The notes under the pieces were generated by a model. The model was not told the DNA's origin. It did not search any database and saw only the letters and a list, made by a program, of their open reading frames with translations. Made by a program: the position numbers and the translations under genes. Positions 4,716-21,093 of a DNA stretch of 64,000 nucleotides are shown in pieces. Within the stretch, counting starts at the first letter, position 1, and each line of letters opens with the position of its first letter. The DNA is taken from NCBI GenBank assembly GCA_946493765.1, contig CAMMAZ010000001.1, positions 62,001 to 126,000 of the forward strand. The letters run 5' to 3'. Source of the stretch: an uncultured Clostridia bacterium (GTDB lineage: Bacteria; Bacillota; Clostridia; Oscillospirales; Acutalibacteraceae).

Positions 4716-5723
4716 TTTTTCTTTCCTATTTTGTTCTTTAGATTCCACAGCGGTCTGATCATTAAATACAGGTTCTTCTTCAAACACAGACCGATGCACC
4801 ATTTTACCGTTATGATAAACAAATTCGGGCAATTCTCTTTTTTCCTCTTGCGCCGCATAGTCGATTTCATCCGATTCAATCTTTTTCAGTCCAGCTGCAG
4901 TTTCCTCCGGATGTTTTTCATAATACGGATCCAGAATATATCTTTTAATGGAAGGAAATACAAAAAAAGCGATGGTATAAAAAATAAAACCGAAAAACAG
5001 CAACATCACAAAGGCGATACCAAGTCCCCACAAAAGCGCGTTAGCGCTGACAACCATTCCATAAATCAAAAGTGCTGTCAAGCCAATCCAAATGAGCAAG
5101 ATAACAGATAAAAGTAGATTCCTGAAAAAGCATAAAAAGGCGAAAATCAGTGAATTTTTCAGAATTTCATATAACCTTAGCTTTAAAGTTACCGCCATCA
5201 TATAGGCATAGTAGCTTGCAAATACAGCCACGACAGCGACAAAAACACTCACGCCAAGACCAATAATGCCCATGATTTCCGATCCGGGAGATGCAGAATA
5301 AAACGGAATCGCAACAGATAGCGCAATAATTAAAACATATTGCAGCAAAGCAATCAACGTGCATTGCTTCCAATTGGAAACATACGCCCTTTTCAGATCT
5401 TCCAGAAAAAAGCCTGGTTCTTCTCTGACATATTCCCTGCACATTTTTGTGACTGCACCGATCACGCCACCCAAAAGAATTGTCGGAAGGAAAGCAATCA
5501 ACGTTAAAACAAAATCATACAAATTCACACTTTTCAGTGGCTCTGCGATACCGATTGCAGAAAACAGCATCGGCAACAAATTGCCGATCCCAACTGATAA
5601 TAAAGCAACGATAATCACTGCGGTAAAAAAAATCACATTGAGCATCAAAATTTTAAAAAATTTGTCTTTATAAATTTCGAAGTATTTAAAAATTGAATTT
5701 TTTTCTAATGTTTGAATCGCCAT
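4713..5723 (-). CDS. Polytopic membrane protein, DUF624/YesL-like
   Basis: This 336-residue protein has a short cytoplasmic start, about six hydrophobic helices (residues ~27-265), and a charged C-terminal tail of ~70 residues. The loop after helix 2, FFLEDLKRAYVSNWKQ, matches the DUF624/YesL pattern of a basic segment before the next helix pair. Members often sit near sugar ABC transporters, but here the neighbours are xerD and spoIIM, so no transport role is supported. The start ATG follows CAGGAG. Confidence 0.6.
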   Translation of the reverse strand: MAIQTLEKNSIFKYFEIYKDKFFKILMLNVIFFTAVIIVALLSVGIGNLLPMLFSAIGIAEPLKSVNLYDFVLTLIAFLPTILLGGVIGAVTKMCREYVREEPGFFLEDLKRAYVSNWKQCTLIALLQYVLIIALSVAIPFYSASPGSEIMGIIGLGVSVFVAVVAVFASYYAYMMAVTLKLRLYEILKNSLIFAFLCFFRNLLLSVILLIWIGLTALLIYGMVVSANALLWGLGIAFVMLLFFGFIFYTIAFFVFPSIKRYILDPYYEKHPEETAAGLKKIESDEIDYAAQEEKRELPEFVYHNGKMVHRSVFEEEPVFNDQTAVESKEQNRKEK

Positions 5724-5763
5724 TTTGTCTCCTGTTTTTTATTTAAAATTTAATCTTTTGTTT

Positions 5764-6651
5764 TTACTGCCCTGCTTTTGGATGAAATTTTTTATAAGAC
5801 GCATCATATTTTTGCTTAATAATCTGTGCATATACCTGTGTGGAAGATATTCCGGAATGCCCTAACATATCTTTAATATCTTTAATGCCGGCACCGTTTT
5901 CCAGTAAATGTGCCGCAAAGGAATGGCGCATGGTATGTGGGGTAATGGATTTTTCAATACCGGCGCTTTGTGCATACCCTTTAATGATTTTCCAGAATCC
6001 CTGTCGGGTCAGACGTTCTCCGTTCATGTTTAAAAACAGTGCTTTTTCCGACCGATTGGATACCAATACCGGGCGGACGCGAACCAAATAATCTTCCACG
6101 GCCTTAACCGCGCTCTTATAAATCGGTATAATACGATCATTCTTTTCAGAAGTACAATGCAGCAAATTAACCTGCAGATTCACATTATCCAAATTCAGAT
6201 CAATCAGCTCGCTGACCCGAACACCGGTGGCATATAATAACTCTAGCATTGCCTTATCCCGGCATCCGCGCAGTGTCGTAATGTCCGGCTGCGCCAAAAG
6301 CGCATCCACTTCCCTTTGGGATAAAATTTCCGGCAGCTTTTTTTCGACTTTTTCCAGCACAATATTTTTTGTCGGATTTTGATCGCATTGTCCATCAAAA
6401 ATTAAAAATTGATAAAAACAACGGATAGAGGCTAAAACACGTACCAAAGTGGCATTCGTCTTACCTTGTTTTTTTAAAACATCTAAATACGTTTGAATAC
6501 ATTCCTTATTACATGAAGGTGCCCCCACCTCGTTTTCATCCAAATATTTTAAAAATTTGGATAAATCACGTCGGTAGGAATCCAACGTATTTTTTGATGC
6601 GTTTTTGGTATTGACCAAATAGTCTGAAAACGCCTGAATCAAATCCGTCAT
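5764..6651 (-). CDS. xerD: Site-specific tyrosine recombinase XerD
   Basis: XerD acts with XerC at dif to resolve chromosome dimers. The N-terminal SAM-like core-binding domain (residues ~1-85) is followed by the catalytic domain with ATGVRVSEL (catalytic Arg), HTMRHSFAAHLL (His-x-x-Arg), LGHSGISSTQVY and the terminal tyrosine. The 295-residue length is normal. It lies 19 bp after spoIIM in the same direction, a common pairing in spore formers, so it is housekeeping and not a mobile-element integrase. Confidence 0.92.
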   Translation of the reverse strand: MTDLIQAFSDYLVNTKNASKNTLDSYRRDLSKFLKYLDENEVGAPSCNKECIQTYLDVLKKQGKTNATLVRVLASIRCFYQFLIFDGQCDQNPTKNIVLEKVEKKLPEILSQREVDALLAQPDITTLRGCRDKAMLELLYATGVRVSELIDLNLDNVNLQVNLLHCTSEKNDRIIPIYKSAVKAVEDYLVRVRPVLVSNRSEKALFLNMNGERLTRQGFWKIIKGYAQSAGIEKSITPHTMRHSFAAHLLENGAGIKDIKDMLGHSGISSTQVYAQIIKQKYDASYKKFHPKAGQ

Positions 6652-15189: not shown

Positions 15190-15539
15190 GGGGGCGTAAA
15201 GGTTTCGACGGGGATTTTGCATCATGATTAGCGAGCAGCGGTGCGGTACCGCTTTAATCCGCCGCAATTTTATAAATTAAACAACAACAATAAAGTTGCT
15301 TTAGCAGCCTAAGTGCTGCTCGTTCCCACCGGGAGGACCACGGCCCGGTGCGGGGCGTCAAACAGTGGTGCACGTGCGTTTGAGAGAACACTGTATCAAA
15401 CCATGAATCAAAGTGTTACCGCAGCCACAAGCCCGTTAACCGGCGTGTGATTGCGGGAAATTTAATCGGTTAACTGCGCTCGGAGAAGGTCATGAGAATA
15501 GATTTTCGGACGGGAGTTCGACTCTCCCCGCCTCCACCA
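15190..15539 (+). ncRNA. ssrA: tmRNA
   Basis: The 350-nt RNA starts with GGGGGCGTAAAGGTTTCGACGGG and ends with GGGAGTTCGACTCTCCCCGCCTCCACCA. Its termini pair as a tRNA-like acceptor (GGGGGCG with CGCCTCC) and the CCA is encoded. The tag frame ends ...NNNNKVALAA at the TAA at 15310-15312. The resume codon is not certain from sequence; lysine AAA at 15274 or a later codon is possible. Several pseudoknot arms follow. Confidence 0.96.
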
Positions 15540-15765: not shown

Positions 15766-15875
15766 TCAGCTCCCACCGCCGAAATGCTGAAAATATCTTT
15801 TTTATTTTCCTTTAGAGAATACAGAACCGTTGAGAAAGCGGCGGTTTTTCTTACATTTCGTATGTTTATGCGGTT
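15766..15875 (+). repeat. Cassette-border repeat, copy A
   Basis: From GCTCCCACC (15769) to about 15875 this stretch is roughly 80% identical by eye to 17543-17650, including the block TTTATTTTCCTTTAGAGAA. The sequence leading into it (GAGAGTTCAGCTCCCACCGCC) matches the 3' T-arm of ssrA (GGGAGTTCGACTCTCCCCGCC) at 16 of 21 positions. Confidence 0.65.
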
Positions 15876-15968
15876 TATTTTTCTGTCCATCATTGCCTTA
15901 AAAGCAAAAGAATCTCTTTTAATTTTTTCGAGAATTTTAAAATCAGCTTTTCTATAATATCTCCAAAA

Positions 15969-16035: not shown

Positions 16036-16542
16036 TTATTGTTGAGTTGGTTTTTCACAAACTATTTTTAAAACCTTTGCTTCAACTATATCGTATTTGC
16101 TAGAAACCATAACGTATGTGCTTTCTTCTGAAATATATTCTCTGCTATAAATATAGTTATTTTGAGCTATTTCATCGCCAACTAAATCTCCTTTTTCATT
16201 ATAAAATCCAAAATAAATTTGACGATAAAAATATTCATCATACTCGTCTACATATTTTTGTGTAGTTTTAGAAGTGAATGTCATTTCTCCTGAAAAATAC
16301 CCCTCCTCATTTTTGCATGAAGATATGTCTATATTGCTTATAATCATATATTCATTGTCAGGTTCAAGCGTTATTTGCTCATTTTGAGGATCCGTCTTTT
16401 CGGTTGTTTCTGTAACATCGTCATAACCATTAGAAGTTTCGGACATGCTGCTTTCGGAATTTTTGTTTTCATTATCATTTTTACAAGCGGTTGAAAACAA
16501 CATTAAAATCGCCATTATAACCAATAATATGCTTTTTTTCAT
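16036..16542 (-). CDS. Putative lipoprotein, unknown function
   Basis: The start is ATG 16542 after GAGGGG. The product (168 residues) has a Lys-Lys start, a hydrophobic signal segment and a lipobox ending LFSTAC with Cys20, then a Ser/Asn/Glu/Thr-rich linker (~20-60). The C-terminal ~100 residues look like a beta-rich domain with YFYRQIYFGFY. It lies right after a 31-aa membrane peptide gene, whose stop codon overlaps its ribosome site region. No family was recognised. Confidence 0.75.
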   Translation of the reverse strand: MKKSILLVIMAILMLFSTACKNDNENKNSESSMSETSNGYDDVTETTEKTDPQNEQITLEPDNEYMIISNIDISSCKNEEGYFSGEMTFTSKTTQKYVDEYDEYFYRQIYFGFYNEKGDLVGDEIAQNNYIYSREYISEESTYVMVSSKYDIVEAKVLKIVCEKPTQQ

Positions 16543-16556
16543 AGTATAATCCCCTC

Positions 16557-16652
16557 TCATTTTATGTCTTTTAAAAGCTGCCATAGCACAACAAAAGGGA
16601 GAGCTAATATGCTAATTATTGCTATTAAGCAACCGCTTCTATCTTTTTTCAT
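16557..16652 (-). CDS. 31-residue single-helix membrane peptide
   Basis: ATG 16652 follows AAGGGAG at about 8 nt. The 31-residue product begins MKKDRSGC and carries one hydrophobic helix (LIAIISILALPFVVLW), ending in a basic tail (QLLKDIK). It lies directly downstream of a consensus promoter and its TGA sits next to the ribosome site of the lipoprotein gene. It could be a small membrane modulator or a toxin-like peptide; the function is unknown. It is shorter than usual gene-calling cut-offs. Confidence 0.6.
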   Translation of the reverse strand: MKKDRSGCLIAIISILALPFVVLWQLLKDIK

Positions 16653-16678
16653 GTGTGACTCTCCCTTCTTTTTTCTTA

Positions 16679-16707
16679 ATTATATCACGAACAAGATCGT
16701 AATGCAA
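16679..16707 (-). promoter_or_regulatory. Sigma-A promoter of the small peptide-lipoprotein operon
   Basis: Minus strand: TTGCAT (16707-16702), a 17-bp spacer, TATAAT (16684-16679). Confidence 0.88.
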
Positions 16708-16860
16708 CCATTTTGTACCAAGTTGTTCTGCCAATACCCAATTTTTCGCAACATTGATTGACAGTCAACTCTCCTCTTTTTTGTTTTTTCAGATACTTTT
16801 TGCAGAATATCAGTTCTTTTCTAGGCTTTGCGTTTTTATTAAACTTTTGAAACTTTAATC

Positions 16861-16889
16861 TTGACAGCAGGTAGTTTTTGTGCTATCCT
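16861..16889 (+). promoter_or_regulatory. Promoter of the small RNA
   Basis: TTGACA (16861-16866), a 17-bp spacer, TATCCT (16884-16889). Transcription would start near 16896. Confidence 0.8.
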
Positions 16890-16895
16890 AATCTC

Positions 16896-16964
16896 AAAGT
16901 CAGATAGCTTTAACGGTGTGGGCAATTGCAGCCCTCTTCGCGTTAATAGTTGTCTGACTTTTTT
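16896..16964 (+). ncRNA. Free-standing ~69-nt structured small RNA
   Basis: The RNA predicted to start at 16896 opens with AAAGTCAGA, which pairs exactly with TCTGACTTT (16953-16961) before a T6 run. Inside, AACG pairs with CGTT and GGGC with GCCC around AATTGCA. The promoter is properly spaced and no open frame is enclosed or follows at once. It resembles no family I recognise. It could be an sRNA or a leader/attenuator whose gene has been lost. Confidence 0.65.
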
Positions 16965-17127
16965 ATATTTTCGGATTTTGATACAAACCCTTTTTCATGA
17001 TATGTGATAGAAAAAACAGAAAAACAATGTGGGTTATTAAAAATATATACAAAAACAGTAAAAATTTTACACAATAGGATTTAAATCCAGATAGATCAAT
17101 AAATCTAAAATTTTATTCAAAATATCC

Positions 17128-17156
17128 TTGACAAATATTTCTAATCACTATATAAT
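17128..17156 (+). promoter_or_regulatory. Promoter of the truncated cdd copy
   Basis: A perfect TTGACA (17128-17133), 17 bp, TATAAT (17151-17156). The spacer differs from that of the second copy while both hexamers are the same. Confidence 0.88.
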
Positions 17157-17164
17157 ACTATACG

Positions 17165-17547
17165 TCGACAACATTGCACAAGAGGGTCGTCGGAGAATTC
17201 CGGCGGCTCTCTTCCTTTTTAATTGACAGTTTTATTCTTTTCTGTTATCGTTATATCATATCGTTTTAAAGAGTGAAATGAGGTTTTAAAATGAAATTTG
17301 AAGCATTAATCGATATTGCCAAAAACACGTTAAATCCCAGGCAATTGTCTGAGAATGCAGAGGCCGGTTCTGTTGCCGCGGCATTGGTAACGGATCAGGG
17401 CAACGTTTATCGCGGCGTGTGCATTGATGTTCCCTGCTCCATGGGATTTTGTGCCGAACATGCGGCGATCGCGGCAATGATCACAGCCGGAGAAAGCAGG
17501 ATTGAAAAGTTGGTTGCTGTTTGCGAGGATGGAGATATTGTCGCTCC
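17165..17547 (+). repeat. 383-bp direct repeat, copy 1 (cdd leader and 5' coding part)
   Basis: This tract matches 25127-25509 at a constant offset of 7,962 bp. I count differences only at 17510, 17536 and 17545, all near the 3' break and all synonymous in the cdd frame. It contains the leader hairpin GAGGGTCGTCGG/CCGGCGGCTCTC (17182-17211) followed by TTCCTTTTT. Confidence 0.92.
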
Positions 17548-17590
17548 AACCTTCGAAATCTCAAAAACTCTTTTTTTTATTTTCCTTTAG
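17291..17590 (+). pseudogene. Truncated cytidine deaminase-family gene, copy 1
   Basis: The first ~86 codons equal those of the intact copy at 25253, including the zinc/proton-relay motif CAEHAA. At 17543-17548 the frame runs into unrelated sequence ([13 protein letters not shown]) and stops. The second zinc motif PCGRC and the last ~40 residues are missing, so no active enzyme is expected. Promoter, leader and ribosome site remain intact, so it may still be transcribed. Confidence 0.9.
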
Positions 17591-17650
17591 AGAACACGGA
17601 ACCGTCAAGAAATCGGCAGTTTTTCTTATGTACCGTATATTTATGTGATT
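17543..17650 (+). repeat. Cassette-border repeat, copy B
   Basis: It begins at GCTCC shared by the broken cdd and the repeat (GCTCCAACC here, GCTCCCACC at 15769) and runs parallel to copy A through TTTATTTTCCTTTAGAGAA and on to about 17650. The rest, 17650-17890, shows no gene or clear structure. Confidence 0.65.
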
Positions 17651-17890
17651 TTTTCCAATATTCATAACGGATTTGGTGTGACTAAAACGCTCATTTTGCA
17701 CTATAAAAAGTTACACGAAATCGTACTGAAGTTTCATGGAAAAATTAGTCAGTACATATTAAAGACGCGACTTCCAAATCTGCAATAGAAACCTAAAAAC
17801 AACAGTTTATTGGCGTATTCATTCTCGCTTATGATGATTGACTGCATTCATCCAGAATCTACAATCCAATTTATATATAATTCTTACATA

Positions 17891-18874
17891 CTACTTGTTT
17901 ACAACTTGTCCTAATATCATTTGTTCGCTTTTATACAAATGACGTATAACATCAATGAGCTGTGGTAACAAAGCTGCTTGTTTCGTATAATTATATTTTA
18001 ATGATAACAAACGTAAATTTTCAGATGCTTTAACGACATCGTTTTCATAAGACGAAAAAATGCAGGGTTCAATATACTTGCATTCAGCCAGCCGCTTCAG
18101 CCGTTTGCACATGCAAATTTTATGTTCTTTCACTGTTAAAAAAGTTCGTGCATCAAGCTGATCCACAATAAGATCGCCATCCAAAACCATTTGGACATAT
18201 TTCTCGAGCATTATCATAGTAATGATTCCACAAATCAAACCCTGTTTATCTTTGCAATCAGGTGTGATACTATGAAGATATTTTTTTATTCCGAAATATA
18301 TATGATCAATTTCTAAGGGGATGCTGATTTCTTCAATACATTTTATCCCCAATAATTCCCCTTGATAATTTACATATTCCGAATGAAACCCTTTATAAAA
18401 ACTCTCTTGCGGTATCTCTAATAAGCCAAAATGCCGATCAGATTTATAGGCTGCGATCGTATAGGTTTTCTGTTTATTATTTAAGCCTAACAGAATACCG
18501 TCATGGCTTAAATGACAATTATTTTCATCCCCTTTGTTTTGAATATAATAATCGTCCACACCCATGAAATTCACATAAAATCCACTTTCTAGCATTGCCT
18601 GTATGTTTTCACCCACACTGTACCGTGCAAATTGATTTATGATTCCCGATTTTTGTAATACTGAAATGTTCCATGCATGCGTATTTTCAACGATAATTCC
18701 CGGAGATTCTTCTTTTCCTGTTAAAAATTTATCATTGCATAAAAGCTGAATGCAATTATTAAAATACCAATTATCAGATGTTGGATTGTTTTGGAGTACA
18801 ATACAAGCGGCAGCTTTCCAATGATATGCACTAAACATAGGGGTATGAAAGGGCAATTCAATTTTATTTTTCAT
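17891..18874 (-). CDS. Unknown protein of the peptide-maturation locus, possibly BtrH/C39-like
   Basis: This 327-residue cytoplasmic protein has no signal or membrane segment. The middle part (FYVNFMGVDDYYIQ, then LSHDGILLGLN) looks like the papain-like/BtrH_N pattern in which a His-containing strand follows a conserved Tyr-rich strand, but no convincing catalytic Cys was found. It overlaps the preceding frame by 11 bp, so it belongs to the same operon as the radical SAM gene. The function is not assigned; a role in peptide processing is inference from position. Confidence 0.55.
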   Translation of the reverse strand: MKNKIELPFHTPMFSAYHWKAAACIVLQNNPTSDNWYFNNCIQLLCNDKFLTGKEESPGIIVENTHAWNISVLQKSGIINQFARYSVGENIQAMLESGFYVNFMGVDDYYIQNKGDENNCHLSHDGILLGLNNKQKTYTIAAYKSDRHFGLLEIPQESFYKGFHSEYVNYQGELLGIKCIEEISIPLEIDHIYFGIKKYLHSITPDCKDKQGLICGIITMIMLEKYVQMVLDGDLIVDQLDARTFLTVKEHKICMCKRLKRLAECKYIEPCIFSSYENDVVKASENLRLLSLKYNYTKQAALLPQLIDVIRHLYKSEQMILGQVVNK

Positions 18875-20270
18875 TTATGGCTGTTCCTCCTGACGACAAA
18901 CAATTTATAATCTGTAAATACATTTTATTCATATCATCAGGTTCCCCCAAACGATAAACCGGCAATCTAAATAACTCATAAAATTTACAACATAAGTTGC
19001 TGAATTCATCTTCTGATAGTTCTCTCTTTTTTCCATAATAACCAGACGTTCCGTCGAAATTGACGAGTGGAAATATTACTAATCCAATAACGTGACAATC
19101 AACACCGCCTTCAATAAAATTAATGGTTCGCTTAATACAATTAAGCCCATCGTCTGCATTCACACATAATATTACCAAGTCTGGCTGCAACCCTAAAATA
19201 AATTCATATTGTCCTAATGGATATGTATTTAAATTTCCTTCATAACTCGTAATCATTCCAGATTGTGTGCCACCGATAATAATATCAACACCTGACTGAG
19301 ATATTTCATTTGTTTTATGATTAATATATTCAATAGTTTCATGCCGACTGATGCTATTCGAGTGATGGAATCCATAGTGAAAGCATTCGTCCATTCCAAA
19401 CAAATATGCCGTAGGCTCTGTTCCGATTTGTCCTACTTTATATTGATCTTGCAAAAACAATTTCCGTAATTGCAGTTGTAATGAAAATTTCCCCTGCTTC
19501 GGACCAGTACCACAGACACATACTGTAGGGGTCATGTGACGAAAAAGTTTGCCGTAAGGGATATGATAAACATCTTCTTTTGTAATCTTCGGCGTAAAAT
19601 ACCGATGGCGGTTTTCAATTTCGATAGTATCGGAAATATCCTCAAACGAATAAATGAATTTATGTTTTTTTTGAAGATTGCTAATCAGTTCGTACCAATT
19701 AAATCGACCCTGCAATAGATAGGATAACTCATAGCAATGTCCAATAATGATCGTATCAAAGCTGTCCCAGTCCAGATTCTGAATGTCCTTGATCCTATTT
19801 TGGCTTTTGAAAGGCATATTCAACACCTGATAGGGATACCTCCCTACATTTCCTGAAAATTTTACGTCATAGACATCAATGATATTAATCCGCAAAAGTT
19901 CCTCAAATCTGATTAGACTATGCATTTCTTTGTTAAATGGAAATATAACCGCATTAGTTGGCATATGGGGTAAGGTGGTATTCTGAACAGATCGTTTATG
20001 CTGCATCAACGGAGGAAGTATGGATCTTTGTTTTAGTTTTTGCCGTACCTTTATCAAACTTAACGGCATAGCAAATTGTGAAATGATTCCAGTCACGTTT
20101 GCACAAGCAAAACTATTCCCCGCAAGAAATGTGTAAGACATGTCTTTCCAAGGAACTCTCTGTAAACTTCCTTTAGCACCGATGTCAACATACGCATCAT
20201 CCAGATAAATTAAATCATTCGGTTTAATACACCGTTCGTCGGAATAAATGGAATCGATGATCATCGCCAA
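18864..20270 (-). CDS. Fused S8-protease remnant and clostridial peptide-maturation protein
   Basis: Residues ~1-75 match the C-terminal end of a subtilisin-type S8 protease: GNSFACANVTG carries the catalytic Ser (Ser53) in the usual GxSxAxPxVxG setting. The Asp and His parts of the triad are absent. From ~105 (NAVIFPFNKE) the protein resembles the clostridial natural-product maturation family I know as TIGR04066. A P-loop-like GTGPKQGKFS follows near 255 and a DUF1611-like NTPase region. The frame begins inside the radical SAM gene, so initiation here is uncertain. The best reading is a deletion that joined the tail of an S8 gene to the next gene. Confidence 0.6.
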   Translation of the reverse strand: MAMIIDSIYSDERCIKPNDLIYLDDAYVDIGAKGSLQRVPWKDMSYTFLAGNSFACANVTGIISQFAMPLSLIKVRQKLKQRSILPPLMQHKRSVQNTTLPHMPTNAVIFPFNKEMHSLIRFEELLRINIIDVYDVKFSGNVGRYPYQVLNMPFKSQNRIKDIQNLDWDSFDTIIIGHCYELSYLLQGRFNWYELISNLQKKHKFIYSFEDISDTIEIENRHRYFTPKITKEDVYHIPYGKLFRHMTPTVCVCGTGPKQGKFSLQLQLRKLFLQDQYKVGQIGTEPTAYLFGMDECFHYGFHHSNSISRHETIEYINHKTNEISQSGVDIIIGGTQSGMITSYEGNLNTYPLGQYEFILGLQPDLVILCVNADDGLNCIKRTINFIEGGVDCHVIGLVIFPLVNFDGTSGYYGKKRELSEDEFSNLCCKFYELFRLPVYRLGEPDDMNKMYLQIINCLSSGGTAINEK

Positions 20271-21093
20271 ATGTGCTGTTATAGAAATCGTAATATTCCT
20301 TTAAATAATGCGGCATCGTCATTTCACAGGTAAGATTAGAACGAATCAAAATTTTCATTGTTCTTGTATTAACATGATTCTTGATATAGAGTAAGTTATT
20401 AATAATTGTATCAAACGTGAGGCGATTTCCAGCTAAAACTCTGTATTCATTGTGCGTCTTTTTGATACCATCAACCGTTACTGTGATCTCCGTAACTCTG
20501 CTTTTAATTAATTTATCGATATTTGCGGGTGTCAACAAGTACCCATTCGTAGTAACATTTGAAGAATATGGTTTTTTAGCTTTACGGCACAAAGCAATCA
20601 CTTTGTCAGAAACCTCTTCAATTGCTGCAATATTCAACAGGGGTTCTCCGCCAAACCAATTGATTCTAACACCACAGTAATTAGAAATATTTTTTGCTAT
20701 ATAATTGACAATTCCCTCTTTTGTTTCATCGGATAAAACATCTTTTTGAAATTCCAGCGCACAATATTTGCATCGAAAATTACAATCTTTTGTTGTGTGA
20801 ACTACTAAAACTAGGTAAGGACTCATCATACGCTTCATATATAAAAAATTGCGCGCCTCAATTTCGTTTACGCAGTCATCTACAAAATATCCACGTTTTG
20901 TCAGTTCACCAAATATTGCATGATAGTCCATTGATGAACTAAAATCATTGTCTAGCCAATGTAGAACAGGATCAGAATTTTCCCTCTTAATTTTACAAAT
21001 GCTTTCTATACCTCTCAGGCCATTAAATAATAATAGATTGCGATCTTCGTCATAGTCGATAATATTAAACATGGAAGCTTTCAATATTTTCAC
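20224..21093 (-). CDS. C-terminally truncated radical SAM peptide maturase
   Basis: This 289-residue protein has an N-terminal peptide-binding-type region (~1-95), the [4Fe-4S] motif CNFRCKYC (Cys104, 108, 111), FGGEPLL, and VTTNGYLL. Peptide maturases of this kind are normally ~400-480 residues with a Cys-rich SPASM/twitch domain, which is absent here. The frame ends soon after FGDDHRF, where such proteins usually continue towards SPASM, and protease sequence begins at the same point in another frame. I read it as a broken maturase of the clostridial CcpM type. It may be inactive. Confidence 0.75.
   Translation of the reverse strand: MKILKASMFNIIDYDEDRNLLLFNGLRGIESICKIKRENSDPVLHWLDNDFSSSMDYHAIFGELTKRGYFVDDCVNEIEARNFLYMKRMMSPYLVLVVHTTKDCNFRCKYCALEFQKDVLSDETKEGIVNYIAKNISNYCGVRINWFGGEPLLNIAAIEEVSDKVIALCRKAKKPYSSNVTTNGYLLTPANIDKLIKSRVTEITVTVDGIKKTHNEYRVLAGNRLTFDTIINNLLYIKNHVNTRTMKILIRSNLTCEMTMPHYLKEYYDFYNSTFGDDHRFHLFRRTVY

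Follow-up and report, generated by a model that had tools for sequence, protein, structure and literature searches.

Hairpin RNA units with their own promoter and terminator lie antisense in MuF_C polyvalent-protein genes and recur as a stand-alone copy in a Clostridia chromosome

The RNAs of ToxIN-type systems are tandem pseudoknot repeats that are located upstream of the toxin gene on the same strand. The hairpin RNA family described here resembles these type III toxin-antitoxin systems (ToxIN, CptIN, TenpIN) insofar as a small structured RNA is proposed to neutralize a protein nuclease, but it consists of one long hairpin with its own promoter, and its units were found antisense inside the coding sequence of the toxin module instead of as co-directional tandem repeats ahead of it. 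Type I toxin-antitoxin systems, e.g., those of Clostridioides difficile prophages (PMC7699646), likewise comprise a phage-borne antisense RNA with its own promoter that overlaps a toxin gene, an arrangement seen in the coding copies of our family and not in the copy that gave rise to this study. Whereas type I toxins are small and hydrophobic, the overlapped module is here MuF_C in large open reading frames (ORFs), the hairpin covers the tail of a domain in proteins of up to 4000 residues, and widely differing genes keep a common apical loop. Rickettsia palindromic elements (RPE) and PARCELs (PMC2996958) are also in-frame palindromic DNA within protein genes that spread with mobile elements; they are repeat families known by their sequence or encoded peptide, whereas the hairpin family is constant only in promoter, apex and T-run. 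Its members are not united by a common palindrome or a repeated peptide, since 48 distinct 5' stem arms occur among 49 members and pairing is nevertheless kept. RNA anti-CRISPRs and solitary repeat units (PMC10651486) are comparable as small phage RNA genes occurring as single units, but they mimic CRISPR repeats and the family hairpin is far longer.

The genes that house the antisense unit are those of temperate-phage MuF polymorphic toxins (PMC5576092) and of polyvalent proteins (PMC5512222). MuF-C has been described as a PBECR domain, a predicted RNase fold of phages and conjugative elements (PMC5512222), and a term search of that article for 'antisense' returned 0 occurrences. MuF-type toxins have been reported with immunity proteins (PMC5576092; PMC11699363), in contrast to the RNA that is proposed for the hairpin family.

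The DNA analyzed, hereafter the window, is a stretch of 64,000 nucleotides from an uncultured Clostridia bacterium (GCA_946493765.1, contig CAMMAZ010000001.1). Its relevant features are as follows.

15190-15539, plus strand: tmRNA gene (ssrA)
16700-16855, minus strand: short fragment directly adjoining the unit, similar to the C-terminal helix-turn-helix of site-specific recombinases (PF12728, E 0.0011, below the cut-off and weak)
16839-16994, minus strand: open frame spanning the unit, KRVCIKIRKYKKVRQLLTRRGLQLPTPLKLSDFEIRIAQKLPAVKIKVSKV; remnant of a MuF_C polyvalent-protein tail
16861-16889, plus strand: sigma-70-type promoter of the RNA unit (TTGACA, 17 nt, TATCCT, extended TG)
16896-16961, plus strand: hairpin RNA (folding, homologues found by model and by pattern, covariation)
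16920-16934, plus strand: conserved apical stem-loop GGGC-AATTGCA-GCCC, the family signature
16959-16964, plus strand: T-run completing the intrinsic terminator that the hairpin itself forms

An orphan small RNA had been proposed at this site, and the well-spaced TTGACA/TATCCT promoter of the original prediction was confirmed, with the -35 box at 16861-16866, a 17-nt spacer and the -10 box at 16884-16889, preceded by TG. The stem running into the T-run was recovered as well, but instead of 9 bp with two inner stems, the hairpin (16896-16961, -31.0 kcal/mol) has a longer, near-continuous stem of 20 bp with a single bulge and one apical stem, whose 4 bp (GGGC/GCCC) close the loop AATTGCA (16924-16930). 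The transcript probably extends from 16896 to approximately 16965, with its start placed 6 to 7 nt past the -10 box. Folded with its flanks, the hairpin was more stable than all of 200 dinucleotide shuffles (z = -4.9, none equally good). A scan of 629 kb of the source genome for a promoter, a hairpin and a T-run returned the window unit and one weak candidate (reversed controls, 2), and the architecture is therefore not a product of chance. The unit is present as a single copy in its genome and absent from three genomes of the same genus. Compensatory pairing in homologues, the check suggested at the outset, was indeed found, as the stems differ and yet pair, and these changes in copies elsewhere settle for us that the predicted unit is real. 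Covariation strongly supports a promoter-driven, structured RNA of about 70 nt with its own terminator as predicted from the sequence, whereas the designation as an orphan had to be abandoned, the unit being a member of a wide family.

The family unit is a transcription unit of about 105 bp, i.e., a promoter, a distance of 31 or 34 nt to the apex GGC-AAUUGNA-GCC, a variable long stem within a hairpin of about 70 nt, and a T-run as terminator. The window unit has the 17-nt promoter spacing, the apex GGCAATTGNAGCC at the 31/34-nt distance past the -10 box, a paired long stem and the T-run. A strict search pattern (TTGAC-18/19-TANNNT-30/35-GGCAATTGNAGCC) had hits in 49 viral contigs and, at 19 places, in 18 of the 398 genomes of the bacterial family, in which the reversed pattern had 0 matches. 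Blast of the same 398 genomes with the window unit yielded five real homologues that have the hairpin and T-run in common when aligned; the stand-alone ones carry promoter-like sequence at equal distance, which is weak in L011. Promoter position and 17-nt spacing are identical in 67 of 68 family members, and 66 distinct members fold as hairpins whose arms vary from one to the other. The hairpin is also present in phages of Escherichia coli and Pasteurella, with a weaker promoter (TTGCGA/TATTTT) in two E. coli phages. A covariance model built from six close copies had a weak reach to distant members and also matched the reverse of the palindrome, and viral scans with a single MuF_C protein as the query performed poorly.

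Rfam 15 contained no family reaching the threshold in normal or permissive searches with the window, L010, L012, L037 and L061; the best permissive match of the unit was mir-5881 (17.3 bits versus 87). No matching description was found in the open-licence full-text literature. The small RNA 24B_1 of Stx phages was considered and rejected, because it lies between lom and vb_24B_43 of phage Phi24B and not in a polyvalent gene. Plasmid blastn searches gave matches at chance level. The family is large and apparently undescribed.

The location of the other copies is indicative of the origin of the unit. A 561-residue ORF encoding a MuF_C domain (Pfam PF18819) carries copy L012 on its reverse strand, immediately behind the domain; the coding strand there reads KEKVRQLFARNRLQLPTPLKLSDSDIIIQHTDNSVN, and the antisense strand has the perfect consensus TTGACA-17-TATAAT at the same distance from the hairpin. 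Further MuF_C genes have the same layout with different stems, and in most members the unit is crossed in antisense by a single long ORF of up to 4012 codons, always in the same frame. A MuF_C-like segment, as judged by eye, precedes the unit in nearly all long ORFs viewed (exception, L077); the usual position is the 3' end of the MuF_C-coding segment, where the predicted RNase domain ends, and it is maintained across proteins that are about 30% identical. The same DNA hence encodes the tail of a protein on one strand and, on the opposite one, a structured RNA. The tail GLQLP...VN comprises the most conserved residues of the MuF_C alignment, with L-Q-L-P among the few invariant columns. AlphaFold2 assigned a mean pLDDT of 80 to the MuF_C segment and of 61, 45 and 37 to the GLQLP/tail blocks, from about residue 164 onward. 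The antisense copies dictate this tail, which is otherwise predicted to be disordered. A PDB fold search with MuF_C gave only weak, toxin-like matches (toxin-antitoxin protein 7vd7 and CDI toxin 6cp9), which neither confirm nor exclude the predicted RNase identity. Tandem near-copies of the MuF_C tail unit (GLQLPELTK..., then GLQLSKGLNN...) were observed within one ORF of L037 (1482-1863), as if the unit itself had been duplicated in frame. We are highly confident that the RNA family exists and is nested in polyvalent genes, and the origin of the family in these genes is well supported.

That a needed peptide alone is under constraint, with hairpin and promoter as by-products of its codons, is a very improbable explanation, although the motif is highly conserved among MuF_C proteins. 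It is already contradicted by a set of 13 MuF_C genes that was collected by protein similarity without any DNA pattern: all 13 fold into the antisense hairpin at the tail site, and against synonymous-codon shuffles that kept GLQLP fixed, 9 of the 13 hairpins and 8 of the 13 promoters were unusual (p<0.05), while the other promoters did not exceed the shuffles. Two of the failures, L063 and L139, had a hand-placed motif anchor. In the pattern-found set, which is biased for promoter and apex, the stem was unusual in 24 of 45 synonymous-shuffle tests. Moreover, residues change jointly because bases pair. In L036, L059 and L138, the apical C:G pair is exchanged for G:C and the protein has GVQFP in place of GLQLP (L to V, L to F), and L064 and L065 have the apex GGAG/CTCC and the peptide GEQYS; compensated apices (GGGG-AATTGNA-CCCC, GGAG-TATTGTT-CTCC) occur in the protein-found genes. 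The low confidence with which the tail is predicted and the non-coding copies that retain the unit in a broken frame speak equally against a constraint on the protein only.

The RNA strand itself seems to be the target of selection. Since MAFFT misaligned the stems of 39 transcripts, pairing was evaluated by permutation of arms, and cognate arms of 49 dereplicated members reached -14.0 kcal/mol versus -6.2 +/- 0.4 kcal/mol for permuted ones (z -19). Among 49 members, 32 have an antisense RNA that is more stable than the complementary strand and 16 a less stable one (p 0.002); G-U pairs number 98 in the former strand against 47 in the latter. This difference points to the antisense RNA rather than the mRNA or the DNA as the selected strand. 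All these tests of selection correct only partly for phylogeny. The unit is identical in two species (L127/L128), but this was rejected as proof of purifying selection because the upstream 100 nt are 97% identical too, and only the downstream sequence is unrelated; the comparison is not a clean test.

Units also occur with other apices and outside genes. When 552 kb of family loci were scanned for promoter, outer stem and T-run without the apex pattern, 69 distinct units emerged, against 0 in the reversed sequence of these loci; 48 have an AATTGNA-type apex and 21 another one, mostly antisense in the same giant ORFs. The unit follows closely after an LPD3 domain in L079 and L083. Other-loop antisense units were noted in L079 ORF 966-13001 (amino acids 1203-1240, 2031-2067 and 2258-2293), in L083 and elsewhere, several of them ending in protein motifs such as ISVADFLSIVKD, and they may represent sister RNA families tied to other modules such as LPD3. 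G085 has two copies with 92% identity that starts at the -35 box, stops at the T-run and gives way to unrelated sequence outside, and the stand-alone copy L131 shares 89% identity with the coding copy L132 exactly across the unit; either selection on the unit or its movement could account for such exact sharing. In rumen MAG RGIG337 (Clostridia; G353, L053/L162), intergenic head-to-tail units, only some of which have the AATTGNA loop, form a cluster of six (5149-5805, plus strand) and one of two (3210-2975, minus strand). The former, in which some promoters or stems are weak, is located upstream of a gene read from its sequence as TypA/BipA-like. In G052, some 1.4 kb of decayed coding sequence contains seven units (L163 10.4-12.0 kb, L125), and the peptide text YSFDESGRQIKNS occurs twice between them. 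Several clustered units of G353 and G052 have a broken reverse frame but an intact promoter and hairpin.

The copy in the window is a stand-alone chromosomal one of this mobile-element RNA gene. Its reverse strand is an open frame reading KKVRQLLTRRGLQLPTPLKLSDFEIRIAQKLPAVK, and the unit read backwards still gives KKVRQLLTRRGLQLPTPLKLSD; the frame KRVCIKIRKYKKVRQLLTRRGLQLPTPLKLSDFEIRIAQKLPAVKIKVSKV is comparable to KEKVRQLFARNRLQLPTPLKLSD in the 561-residue MuF_C protein, and a MuF_C core was not detected nearby. Similarity to all three genomes of the same genus ends at the 3' end of the tmRNA gene, which places the unit in a strain-specific island. The simplest history is that it arrived with a mobile element at the tmRNA site, the remainder of which was lost. 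Several further observations were made in the surroundings. Direct repeats of 90 bp (15790-15879 and 17565-17654, 81% identical) flank the region holding the RNA unit, and the second one truncates a cytidine-deaminase-like ORF (17291-17590). Directly ahead of this ORF is a 15-bp terminator hairpin (17180-17213) with a second, perfect promoter TTGACA-17-TATAAT (both within 17128-17213, plus strand); this layout is unlike that of the RNA family, as the hairpin begins about 23 nt after the -10 box, and it may therefore be a leader or attenuator. On the minus strand, a 31-residue membrane-peptide-like ORF with its own promoter is located directly upstream of a lipoprotein-like gene (16036-16710), and a radical SAM protein, a DUF1611-like P-loop protein and one further protein are encoded in a row (17891-21093), possibly a peptide-modification cluster.

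The nesting of the hairpin at the end of the RNase module, its constant loop and its own promoter suggest an RNA antidote. We tentatively favor this reading, at somewhat less than even chances: the RNA would be expressed from its antisense promoter inside the polyvalent gene and would counteract the overlapped toxin module, either because its conserved AAUUGNA loop binds the nuclease domain or because it pairs with the mRNA of the toxin, and cells producing the polyvalent protein would thereby be protected. Free copies and clusters in host chromosomes would then be antidotes retained after loss of the toxin segment, and the clusters with dead reverse frames suggest that the RNA can be kept without the toxin. 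A conserved loop combined with variable stems is insufficient alone for toxin specificity, RNA immunity is not required given the reported immunity proteins, and the function is perhaps unrelated to MuF_C because other-apex units adjoin other domains (LPD3). The wider version of the proposal, with one back-strand RNA antidote for each toxin module of the polyvalent genes and the chromosomal clusters, including the window unit, as a store of RNA immunity, is doubtful.

Regulation without an antidote role, in which RNA pairing or transcriptional collision with the polyvalent mRNA limits expression or superinfection and a host copy either targets incoming elements in trans or does nothing, is rather unlikely as well. 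The antisense location of nearly every coding copy, the conserved promoter and terminator and the more stable antisense strand are consistent with it, but a single loop common to very different genes would confer little target specificity, and plain pairing needs no strong selection for a long closed hairpin. Still less probable are small transposing or recombining palindromic elements that settle at inter-domain linkers and are antisense because a terminator in sense orientation would kill the host gene. They would explain the exact-boundary duplicates in G085 and between L131 and L132, the several units per giant gene at module boundaries, the clusters in G353 and G052, and the island with a recombinase-like fragment by the tmRNA gene, but the stems co-vary without any repeated sequence, one position after MuF_C is kept across highly divergent proteins, and purely mobile DNA needs neither promoter and spacing nor an RNA-strand bias. 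It is improbable to a similarly marked or greater degree that the window copy is a neutral, now inactive remnant of the polyvalent gene of a lost element. Because its reverse frame has stayed open and spells the protein tail, it may be no more than a recent gene relic, and its single-copy state, its absence from the three related genomes and its location in a decayed island are in agreement; however, promoter, hairpin and T-run are intact while flanking MuF_C coding sequence is undetected, and copies in other genomes have exactly these boundaries.

Dozens of phage genes contain a promoter, structured RNA and terminator that are conserved for the RNA even though their bases also encode protein on the opposite strand, and the nested RNA explains the puzzling peptide GLQLP...VN, which is conserved and yet predicted to be disordered. 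The antidote idea provides a testable answer to the question of how producers of polyvalent toxins protect themselves and, if right, could place the architecture in RNA toxin-antitoxin systems as a new branch of these; if there is truly one antidote per module, every toxin segment would be accompanied by an RNA immunity of its own. Such RNA genes may be concealed in many metagenomic phage proteins.
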